From: Bdellovibrionales bacterium RIFCSPHIGHO2_01_FULL_40_29
Lineage (GTDB): Bacteria > Bdellovibrionota > Bdellovibrionia > Bdellovibrionales > Bdellovibrionaceae
NCBI GenBank assembly: GCA_001771815.1
Contig: MEPU01000013.1
Span: 124,001-188,000 of the forward strand
Direction: 5' to 3'
DNA: 64,000 bases
Shown: positions 21,969 to 24,367 of the stretch, one piece after another
How positions within the stretch are numbered: the stretch's first letter is position 1
Layout: each line of letters begins with the position of its first letter
Translations under genes and position numbers: made by a program
The notes under the pieces: generated by a model
Told to the model about the DNA's origin: nothing
Seen by the model: the letters and a program-made list of their open reading frames with translations, nothing else
The model's database searches: none

Positions 21969-22388
21969 TTAAAGTTCAATCATCTTTAATAGAGGCCCAA
22001 TAAGAAGTATCATCAGCGCCGGGAAAATCAGCCCCATAAGTGGAACCAGCAGCAATAAAGGCAGTTTTGCAATATGGCGCTGAATTTCTTCTTCACAACT
22101 GAGCAGTAACTCAGCCTCATAAGACAATAAGGCCTCTAAAATTGTCTGCCCTCGCAACCCTTGCTCCAATAGCGCCAACAGATGACGTTTGCTGGGAGCT
22201 AGCTTCAATGCAGGTCTTGTCTCCGGATCCGTTTGCAACAGAATATGCCATTTACGAACCTCTTGTACAAAAGGATGTGCCAAATCGCGATCAATAAATG
22301 TCTTAATTCCCTTAGAAACCGAGAACCCTTTTTCAAGTGATCTTTTCACATCCCACAAAAGCAACATCGTTGGCGTTATGTTTTCCAT
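21969..22388 (-). CDS. TadC-like type II secretion F-domain protein
   Basis: 139 residues. The C-terminal half, SYEAELLLSCEEEIQRHI followed by a long hydrophobic hairpin LPLLLLVPLMGLIFPALMIL, matches the end of T2SS-F domains in Tad pilus TadC proteins. TadC is normally about 300 residues, so this is short, with little of the usual N-terminal region. It overlaps the TadB-like gene by 13 nt, as tadB and tadC usually adjoin. It would be an inner-membrane platform of a Tad/Flp pilus, but no TadA ATPase gene is nearby. Confidence 0.65.
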   Translation of the reverse strand: MENITPTMLLLWDVKRSLEKGFSVSKGIKTFIDRDLAHPFVQEVRKWHILLQTDPETRPALKLAPSKRHLLALLEQGLRGQTILEALLSYEAELLLSCEEEIQRHIAKLPLLLLVPLMGLIFPALMILLIGPLLKMIEL

Positions 22389-23110
22389 TTAATTCGCCCC
22401 CCCATCAAAAATACCAAGCTTTGACCCGCTACAAACAGCACAACGGATACGACGATGATTCCTCTTTGTTCCGACAACCTAAAGTTCATCCAGCTCAACG
22501 TAAAAATTCCACAATAGATAAAAAGTGCAACAACAGCTTGTGCTCTGATTTGTTGAGTAACTTGTCCGGACTTATGTCTCAAATTGCGCTGAATTTTCAA
22601 ACCATCGCGAAACGAAATCAGCTGATCAATCACTTTTGTTGATGATTTTAAAATGTGTTCCAACTCTTCGAAATAGAATTTCTGAAACTTTAAAACCGAA
22701 TTGTCGGATAGGTTTTCATGTTCAAAGCAAAATAAAATGGGTTTGAAGACAGATTTTTCCCATTCAGAAAGATACGAATACGTCATTTTCAAACTTGTTT
22801 GCGCTGACTTGCCTGACTTCATAAGCAGAATAATCTCATCGATAAACGCAATTTCTCGCAATTGATGGGTTCTTTTGATGAAAAACGAAAGAATTTTCTG
22901 AAAAAAGATCAAGCTCGTCAAAATAATACCGATATAAATAAGTGTAATCGGGAAAAGCTCTTTGAAAAACAGTGGAAAGTAGATGGGAATTTGAAACAAA
23001 AAGAACATCTGAATCATTTTTTTCTGATTTAGCACTTCAAATTTCCGAAGATGAGACAAAATTCGGAACACGATTACTAATCCGAACATCGATATTAAGA
23101 GCTCAAACAT
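22376..23110 (-). CDS. TadB-like inner-membrane platform protein
   Basis: 244 residues from the ATG at 23110, chosen because GGAGG stands 8 nt before it (a second ATG at 23125 would contain that SD). Two hydrophobic segments near the N-terminus (residues about 1-20 and 35-70), a cytoplasmic helical T2SS-F core with FIDEIILLMKSGKSAQTSL, then SGQVTQQIRAQAVVALFIY and a C-terminal membrane pair. This order is that of TadB. It is the first gene of a minus-strand run through the TadC-like and transsulfuration genes, and is divergent from the Lys-rich peptide gene. Confidence 0.7.
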   Translation of the reverse strand: MFELLISMFGLVIVFRILSHLRKFEVLNQKKMIQMFFLFQIPIYFPLFFKELFPITLIYIGIILTSLIFFQKILSFFIKRTHQLREIAFIDEIILLMKSGKSAQTSLKMTYSYLSEWEKSVFKPILFCFEHENLSDNSVLKFQKFYFEELEHILKSSTKVIDQLISFRDGLKIQRNLRHKSGQVTQQIRAQAVVALFIYCGIFTLSWMNFRLSEQRGIIVVSVVLFVAGQSLVFLMGGRIKWKT

Positions 23111-23168
23111 GTTTTCAACCTCCATTTGGAGTTTGAAGAACGCAAAATTGATGCAAGAAATATTTTTG

Positions 23169-23197
23169 TTGACGAAGCTTGTCGTTTTATTAACAAT
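23169..23197 (+). promoter_or_regulatory. Possible promoter of the Lys-rich peptide gene
   Basis: TTGACG at 23169-23174, a 17-nt spacer and AACAAT at 23192-23197 (5 and 4 of 6 matches to the sigma70 consensus). It would give a 5' leader of about 70 nt before the ATG at 23274. Confidence 0.4.
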
Positions 23198-23273
23198 TTT
23201 ATTAAGGAAGACTGAAAAGTCTAAACAACAACAACTGCGGGATCAGAAATGATTTCGCACCAGGAGGATTAAC

Positions 23274-23357
23274 ATGGCAAAGAAGAAAGCAAAAAAAGCT
23301 ACTAAGAAAGCTGCAAAAAAATCTACAAAAAAAGCTTCTAAAAAGAAGAAAAAGTAG
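23274..23357 (+). CDS. 27-aa Lys/Ala-rich histone-H1-like peptide
   Basis: A complete miniature gene: AGGAGG 7 nt before an ATG, 27 codons, a TAG and a strong terminator 25 nt later, with a plausible promoter upstream. The product is MAKKKAKKATKKAAKKST followed by a Lys-rich end: 17 Lys, 6 Ala and a few Thr/Ser. This is the composition of histone H1 tails and of bacterial AlgP/HC1-type nucleoid proteins, so it should bind DNA or RNA. The tail of ribosomal protein L21 encoded at 44717 uses the same KKAAKK/KKTTKK units. The perfect expression signals argue that it is translated at a high level. Its role is unknown. Confidence 0.75.
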   Translation: MAKKKAKKATKKAAKKSTKKASKKKKK

Positions 23358-23381
23358 TTTTTAAAAAGCACTTAGCTTGAT

Positions 23382-23413
23382 AAACCCTTGGCCTTAAAAC
23401 CAAGGGTTTTTTT
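23382..23413 (+). terminator. Strong rho-independent terminator
   Basis: AAACCCTTGG pairs perfectly with CCAAGGGTTT (10 pairs, 8-nt loop) and runs into seven T. It ends the Lys-rich peptide transcript. Confidence 0.9.
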
Positions 23414-23493: not shown

Positions 23494-24117
23494 TTAGTAA
23501 TAATAAATAATTCCTACAGCGCCCGATGGAATCAATGTTAGATCCTGAACTTCAGCCATCATCACCAATTCTCCAAATAAATTCATTCCAGATAATTCAC
23601 CCTCTAATTGATTGTACTCAAGCCCTCCACTCGCAACAATAAAGTCCGCACTAAATCTGTTGTTTTTGATTTCATCATCGGTCAAAACGCGCTTCAAAAT
23701 ATCTGAATCGCCCGCGGCTGAAGAGCTGCTTGCTGAATTAAACCACTTCGAATACCCGACTTTTGTGTAGGGAGATAAATAATTTCCAATAAAATTATGC
23801 TTCCAGCCAACTTGGAACGAATTATAGCCGGAGCCAGCGCCTAAACCAAAACCAATGGCTTCCGTAGGATCCAAATTGATTTCCAAATTTAAACCAATGA
23901 GCCCTGCTGCTCCCCCAACCATCACTCCAAGGCCAAATTTTTTATGGTCTTTCATTTCAAGATTTGAGTCATAAAGCTCAACACCCTCACTATCAAATTT
24001 TTGATTCTTATCAAAAACGGATTGGTTTTGAGTAGTTTGGCGAGTATCAGAGTCTGGCCAAGATTGAGCAAATACAACGGATTGAACACACAAAATAAGA
24101 AAGAATATTTTTTTCAT
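23494..24117 (-). CDS. Outer-membrane beta-barrel-like protein
   Basis: 207 residues from the ATG at 24117, where AGGGG lies 7 nt upstream and a clean signal peptide begins (MKKIFFLILCVQSVVFAQS); the frame extends 57 nt further but without signals. The mature part has barrel-like strands (FGLGVMVGGAAGLIGLNLEI, AIGFGLGAGSGYNSFQVGW, YLSPYTKVGYSKWF) and ends in aromatic residues (GAVGIIYYY). No family recognised. Monocistronic between the Lys-rich peptide gene, with which it is convergent, and the divergent mdh operon. Confidence 0.7.
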   Translation of the reverse strand: MKKIFFLILCVQSVVFAQSWPDSDTRQTTQNQSVFDKNQKFDSEGVELYDSNLEMKDHKKFGLGVMVGGAAGLIGLNLEINLDPTEAIGFGLGAGSGYNSFQVGWKHNFIGNYLSPYTKVGYSKWFNSASSSSAAGDSDILKRVLTDDEIKNNRFSADFIVASGGLEYNQLEGELSGMNLFGELVMMAEVQDLTLIPSGAVGIIYYY

Positions 24118-24367
24118 AGAGCCCCTGCTTTTGTTAGTTAGCCGTAGTTTCATTAAAAAAATCTGCACGAGCAAGACAAATCAGAGCGTTTGCCCAAATT
24201 GTTACCACACCCGTGGATTACAAAACATCAAAAAATCTCCAGTTTTTAGATGACTCACTTTGATCAGACTTGTTCTTTTTTAACTAATCTTCTACAACCG
24301 ATAAGGACTTAAATTTCACATTAGAAACGGCTCTTTCAGAACTGTTTTCATTATTAAGGAGATCACT

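Follow-up and report, generated by a model that had tools for sequence, protein, structure and literature searches.

A tiny lysine-rich gene of the class containing Bdellovibrio and its probable product, a free-standing H1-like polycation

The window analysed here, a stretch of 64,000 nucleotides from a source genome of 2.93 Mb in 13 contigs, carries at 23169-23413 a real micro-gene that has been inherited vertically within the class containing Bdellovibrio. The gene is class-wide, apparently undescribed before, and appears to encode a free-standing, tail-only H1-like polycation. It is best explained, with moderate confidence, by a product that probably binds nucleic acid through its charge, most likely in the nucleoid. 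The gene, its frame, control signals, conservation, synteny and composition were all established directly from the genomes compared; high expression, nucleic-acid binding, a nucleoid role and the timing of the micro-protein are what we infer from there. The product is composed almost purely of lysine, alanine and threonine. The initial annotation counted 17 lysines among its 27 residues, one too many, since 16 are found on the window translation. The promoter-like boxes, the perfect Shine-Dalgarno (SD) sequence and the strong terminator that it had placed within 245 nt were all confirmed. The elements of the locus are listed below in window coordinates.

22376-23125, minus strand: divergent TadC-like membrane protein, a syntenic marker whose protein cluster lies beside the micro-gene; TadC-like label given by sequence inspection
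23155-23168, plus strand: A/T tract resembling an UP element, just 5' of the -35 box; an A-run then a T-run in 79 distinct ortholog promoters
23169-23197, plus strand: promoter with -35 box TTGACG, -10-like AACAAT and a spacer of 17, from the window scan and ortholog promoters
23171-23183, plus strand: dyad GAC-N7-GTC over the -35 box, a possible operator, kept among the 79 ortholog promoters
23209-23222, plus strand: leader hairpin 1, AGACT-GAAA-AGTCT, near the predicted transcript 5' end
23224-23235, plus strand: unpaired (AAC)4 linker; AACAACAAC in all 14 genus members
23237-23258, plus strand: leader hairpin 2, with a 9-bp stem and a GNAA tetraloop, 3 nt 5' of the SD; covaries in the genus
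23262-23267, plus strand: perfect SD AGGAGG, 6 nt 5' of the ATG; GGAG kept in the genus
23274-23357, plus strand: micro-gene for MAKKKAKKATKKAAKKSTKKASKKKKK, 27 aa, with ATG at 23274 and stop TAG at 23355-23357
23382-23409, plus strand: intrinsic terminator AAACCCTTGG-CCTTAAAA-CCAAGGGTTT, 10 pairs followed by a T run, from the scan and the terminators of relatives
23494-24174, minus strand: convergent neighbour, probable outer-membrane beta-barrel protein (cluster C6, with 14 members in the compared regions; function by inspection)

The ATG, the SD, the frame and the lysine columns of the micro-gene are kept in 14 of 14 genus genomes; poor conservation of the first three had been set beforehand as a ground for rejecting the gene. 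In the same 14 genomes TTGACG is found 104-109 nt, AACAACAAC about 50 nt and GGAG 9-11 nt upstream of the ATG. The frames are lysine-rich and end in a C-terminal lysine run, replaced by KKKKH in two of the 14. In the codon alignment of the genus, pairwise differences amount to 184, 124 and 604 at codon positions 1, 2 and 3, respectively. Lysine columns exchange AAA and AAG only, except for the last one (K to H in two genomes), non-lysine positions swap A, T, S and V, and indels are all of whole codons. The codon-position bias, the AAA/AAG-only lysine columns and the whole-codon indels together indicate a translated sequence that is selected for composition. Start, SD and frame conserved with a synonymous bias across relatives are what is generally expected of a small-protein gene. 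Together with the promoter and the terminator, and over both genus and class, these features strongly support the complete miniature gene that had been proposed.

Class genomes were searched with the pattern TTGACR-N63..93-GGAG-N4..9-ATGGCNAARAAR, the reversed pattern serving as control. The combined pattern matched 92 of 144 genomes, usually once each, and the control none. A chance ORF in A-rich DNA was rejected on the class-wide conservation and on the single match in the source genome. With the loci reached via the neighbouring gene added to the pattern loci, a verified K/A/T micro-gene was obtained in 119 of the 144 genomes. Many of the remaining genomes correspond to contig ends, incomplete genomes or loci outside those examined, and on locus inspection a few class genomes that have the TadC-like neighbour seem truly devoid of the micro-gene. 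Since many class loci were gathered with a pattern requiring promoter and SD, TTGACG and GGAG are in part conserved by construction. No such selection was applied to the dyad, the A/T tract, the terminator, the length or the lysine pattern past the first residues, and the promoter played no part in the search for loci reached through the TadC-like neighbour.

The first set of class loci yielded 73 distinct peptides. The peptides of the 119 class genes are between 21 and 127 aa long, their length changing by repeat number. Taken together they consist of 52.8% K, 21.9% A, 13.2% T, 4.5% R and 3.5% V, and three acidic residues were counted in the whole set. A terminator is present 3' of 110 of the 119 micro-genes, with 87 distinct stem arms (shuffled sequence 4%). 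In the window the consensus scans gave scores that are weak on their own, both for sigma-70-like promoters (6 sites against 2.6 expected) and for terminators (1 against 0.8 expected); the promoter and the terminator of the micro-gene are significant because they are conserved in relatives. Among the other 225 phylum genomes eight scattered matches of the pattern were found, and a K-rich micro-ORF was present in one of the five that were inspected. In an outgroup family (f11), two of three genomes have the micro-gene next to a TadC-like gene whose match is weak. In family f12, which belongs to the same phylum, free-standing K/A/T micro-genes of 22-57 aa lie at other loci under a different promoter (L213 in G208, L261 in G167, L263 in G239 and L264 in G248). 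Such peptides under different promoters suggest that micro-genes of this sort may predate the TadC-adjoining locus.

No model of Pfam or NCBIfam covers the micro-gene or provides a usable family. The 27-aa peptide does not match Hc2 (PF07382) at the gathering cut-off. Among five relatives' peptides, only one of 94 aa touches this model (E=0.3, 11.6 bits against a cut-off of 40). The general traits of Hc2-like proteins, i.e. Lys/Ala-rich repeats, almost no acidic residues and repeat-driven length variation, are all found, and the earlier description of the peptide as H1-like is right as to composition. A histone fold (PF00808, Bd0055-like) is not found in this product of 27 residues, which has no Pfam match. 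The micro-gene is assigned neither to Hc2 or histones nor to attenuators or known RNAs.

Comparable K/A-rich modules are borne by larger proteins. The KKAAKK units said to be common to the peptide and to the L21 tail of the window are indeed present in both. This L21 (44717-45316, minus strand; Pfam PF00829, E=6.5e-33) has a C-terminal K/A-rich H1-like tail. A ribosomal protein S11-like sequence, identified by inspection, carries a K-rich N-terminal extension (L268 in G048). In the source genome a SWIB-domain protein has an H1-like N-terminal K/A/P tail (L002, on C7 around 247500), and SWIB proteins with an H1-like N-terminal tail were also observed at L260, L265 and L271. K/A-rich N-terminal tails occur as well on histone-fold proteins (L269/L276 in G125, L273 in G140, L262/L272 in G197, L275 in G045 and L277 in G099), in contrast with the short histones of other relatives. 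In G125 the tail MAKKKAKKSTKKAAKKTTRRK is joined to a fold matching the histone structures 9qt0 (E 2.4e-10) and 8cmp (E 8.6e-4); in G140 the tail MAKKKAKKATRK is likewise joined to a histone fold. No free micro-gene was detected in these two genomes, and the cases, only two in number, are suggestive of a histone-fused tail where the free gene is absent. A PF00808 histone-fold match was also obtained in the source genome; its open frame has about 75 codons, so that a long tail is not expected.

The H1-like composition with drifting repeats and the occurrence of the same module on histone-fold, SWIB, L21 and S11 proteins favour, with moderate confidence, nucleic-acid binding with DNA first. From its dedicated promoter the gene would be transcribed into a short, monocistronic mRNA, and the hairpin/(AAC)n leader of this mRNA would present the perfect SD for translation. 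The product would be a free, disordered K/A/T polycation that acts through charge and not through a fold, and that binds phosphate backbones. Its target would most probably be chromosomal DNA, which it could condense in the manner of a linker histone or a protamine, alongside a Bd0055-type histone. Charge density and pattern (KK every 2-3 residues) would be what selection maintains, with the number of repeats free to drift.

Comparable proteins are known from other bacteria. Chlamydia Hc2 (PF07382) and Bordetella BpH1 are also polycations of lysine/alanine repeats with T and V, whose length is driven by repeats. In Chlamydia, lysine-rich H1-like proteins condense DNA, and the life cycle to which Hc2 belongs is biphasic and includes a condensed nucleoid (PMC2848022). 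Hc2 differs in its length of 165-237 aa, whereas the micro-proteins have 21-127 aa and are tail only; the latter have a fixed syntenic locus and a promoter peculiar to the class, and their match to the HC2 model is insignificant. Coxiella burnetii ScvA is a very basic DNA-binding peptide of about 30 residues of the condensed cell form, rich in Arg and Gln. Likened by description only, ScvA and the micro-protein are both tiny and very basic, and differ in the Lys/Ala repeats that ScvA lacks. ScvA is SCV-specific (PMC6759588).

In B. bacteriovorus, the histone Bd0055 (HBb) is an abundant nucleoid protein, and LC-MS/MS underlay the study that calls it dominant (PMC10627809). It belongs to the same lineage, and relatives carry the K/A module joined to such folds, whereas the micro-protein is without histone fold. 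A review of the Bdellovibrio nucleoid names HU, IHF, Fis, Dps and two histones; it expects that more proteins remain to be identified (PMC11318664). The micro-gene is not mentioned in the portions of these two nucleoid papers that were searched (PMC11318664, PMC10627809), and its peptide motif was not found in the literature among the matches listed. In the tryptic proteomics of Bdellovibrio, small proteins are reported to be under-detected (PMC12546842). Being tiny and destroyed by trypsin, the micro-protein would escape both gene callers and this approach. How Bdellovibrio compacts its nucleoid is still an unsettled question, for which this widely kept gene of a tiny polycation offers a specific target in HD100.

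The main rival explanation is a ribosome- or RNA-binding micro-protein, a polycation that would neutralise rRNA or mRNA as the lysine tails of L21 and S11 may do, and not the nucleoid. The K/A tails on L21 in the window and on S11 in G048 make rRNA binding fit too, chlamydial Hc2 binds RNA as well (PMC2848022), and the strong SD and the leader look like those of a highly translated gene. However, the peptides span a roughly six-fold range of length and have no fixed motif, whereas ribosomal micro-proteins fill a defined pocket, and tail fusions occur also on histone-fold and SWIB proteins. RNA binding as the principal role is a serious candidate that is nonetheless unlikely. The broader proposal of a nucleoid- or RNA-binding peptide made in quantity is plausible.

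A more specific and quite tentative form of the nucleoid reading is that of a detached histone tail. The peptide would be a minimal linker-histone analogue, acting in trans with a Bd0055-type histone in a two-part core/linker chromatin, and some lineages without the free gene would, on the same tentative footing, bear the tail on the histone itself. If true, predators would compact the nucleoid of their tiny attack cell with core/linker chromatin.

A polyphosphate- or granule-associated polycation resembling AlgP is improbable. The C-terminal KPAA domains of Pseudomonas AlgP and PhaF share H1-like lysine/alanine repeats of variable number with the micro-protein, and these repeats bind DNA; the AlgP domain is required for polyphosphate granule spacing in Pseudomonas (PMC9239181). 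They are proline-containing tails on a folded N-terminal domain, whereas here the tail is the whole protein, without any PhaF/AlgP-like N-terminal domain, and no polyphosphate or PHA gene was noticed among the neighbours. The preferred reading remains a nucleic-acid-binding peptide.

Three features go beyond the initial annotation: the structure in the leader, the synteny and the dyad in the promoter. The leader of the window is much more stable than its shuffles (z = -4.0), and all leaders together have a mean z of only -1.2. Hairpin 1 is nearly invariant in the genus, and AACAACAAC is found also in many other genera. For hairpin 2, a 22-nt alignment has 96% of its cells paired, and six of the nine pairs change on both sides. 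Its covariation score is 0.667 against 0.267 for shuffled alignments and at most 0.099 for slid structures; the exact value is somewhat favourable because segments were hand-cut around the predicted loop, identical hairpins merged and G013 excluded (one extra stem base), and the slid controls uphold the conclusion. The sequence of hairpin 2 is not common to leaders outside the genus. At similar positions the leaders of other genera, g5 and g10 for instance, form hairpins unrelated to it; in view of this and of the weak mean z, hairpin 2 is established for the genus only. A regulatory RNA acting via the leader hairpins, with an incidental ORF, could account for this covariation. It is very improbable in view of the codon-position bias, the whole-codon indels and the AAA/AAG-only exchange at lysine columns, of the confinement of hairpin 2 to the genus, and of Rfam, where no family reaches its gathering score (best RF00515, 24.2 bits against 54 required).

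Twenty regions were compared, and in nearly all of them the same TadC-like gene pair is divergent from the micro-gene. On the other side a probable outer-membrane protein is usually convergent, and past it lie Mla-type transport genes or mdh-sucCD. In genomes that the exact pattern had missed, the micro-gene adjoins the TadC-like gene in 24 of 30 loci. The TadB/TadC-like membrane protein pair of the window (21969-23125, minus strand), kept class-wide beside the micro-gene, has no Pfam match and no convincing NCBIfam match. A lysine-codon leader peptide for transcription attenuation, suggested by 16 lysine codons followed by an intrinsic terminator that would be the attenuator, is largely refuted by gene orientation and hardly credible, since the downstream gene runs towards the micro-gene, both in the window and in most of the compared regions, instead of forming a same-strand biosynthetic operon, the terminator is located 3' of the stop codon and the peptides reach 127 aa.

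The locus is not obviously attack-phase specific. In G060, presumably the genome of B. bacteriovorus HD100, the locus lies at 3,670,525-3,670,820 on the plus strand and the homologue has 43 aa. For HD100, TTAAG-N16-CCGATA is the reported FliA attack-phase motif (PMC3627812); a FliA attack-phase promoter was rejected, this motif being absent at the locus in the presumed HD100 genome. An attack-phase sRNA was rejected as well, none of the eight described there (Karunker 2013, PMC3627812) mapping to 3.67 Mb of that genome.

TTGACG is present in 78 of the 79 distinct ortholog promoters, a set gathered partly by this motif, and the -10 across them resembles AAnACT. In many relatives the dyad reads TGAC-N7-GTCA. 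A shared regulon was rejected: scans of G000, G060 and G051 gave no further evident promoter with the -35/dyad/-10 pattern, and rRNA promoters are without it. The GTC half of the dyad, whose positions were unused in locus finding, is kept as G in 63, T in 77 and C in 73 of the 79 promoters, and a dedicated regulator acting at this candidate dyad is possible.
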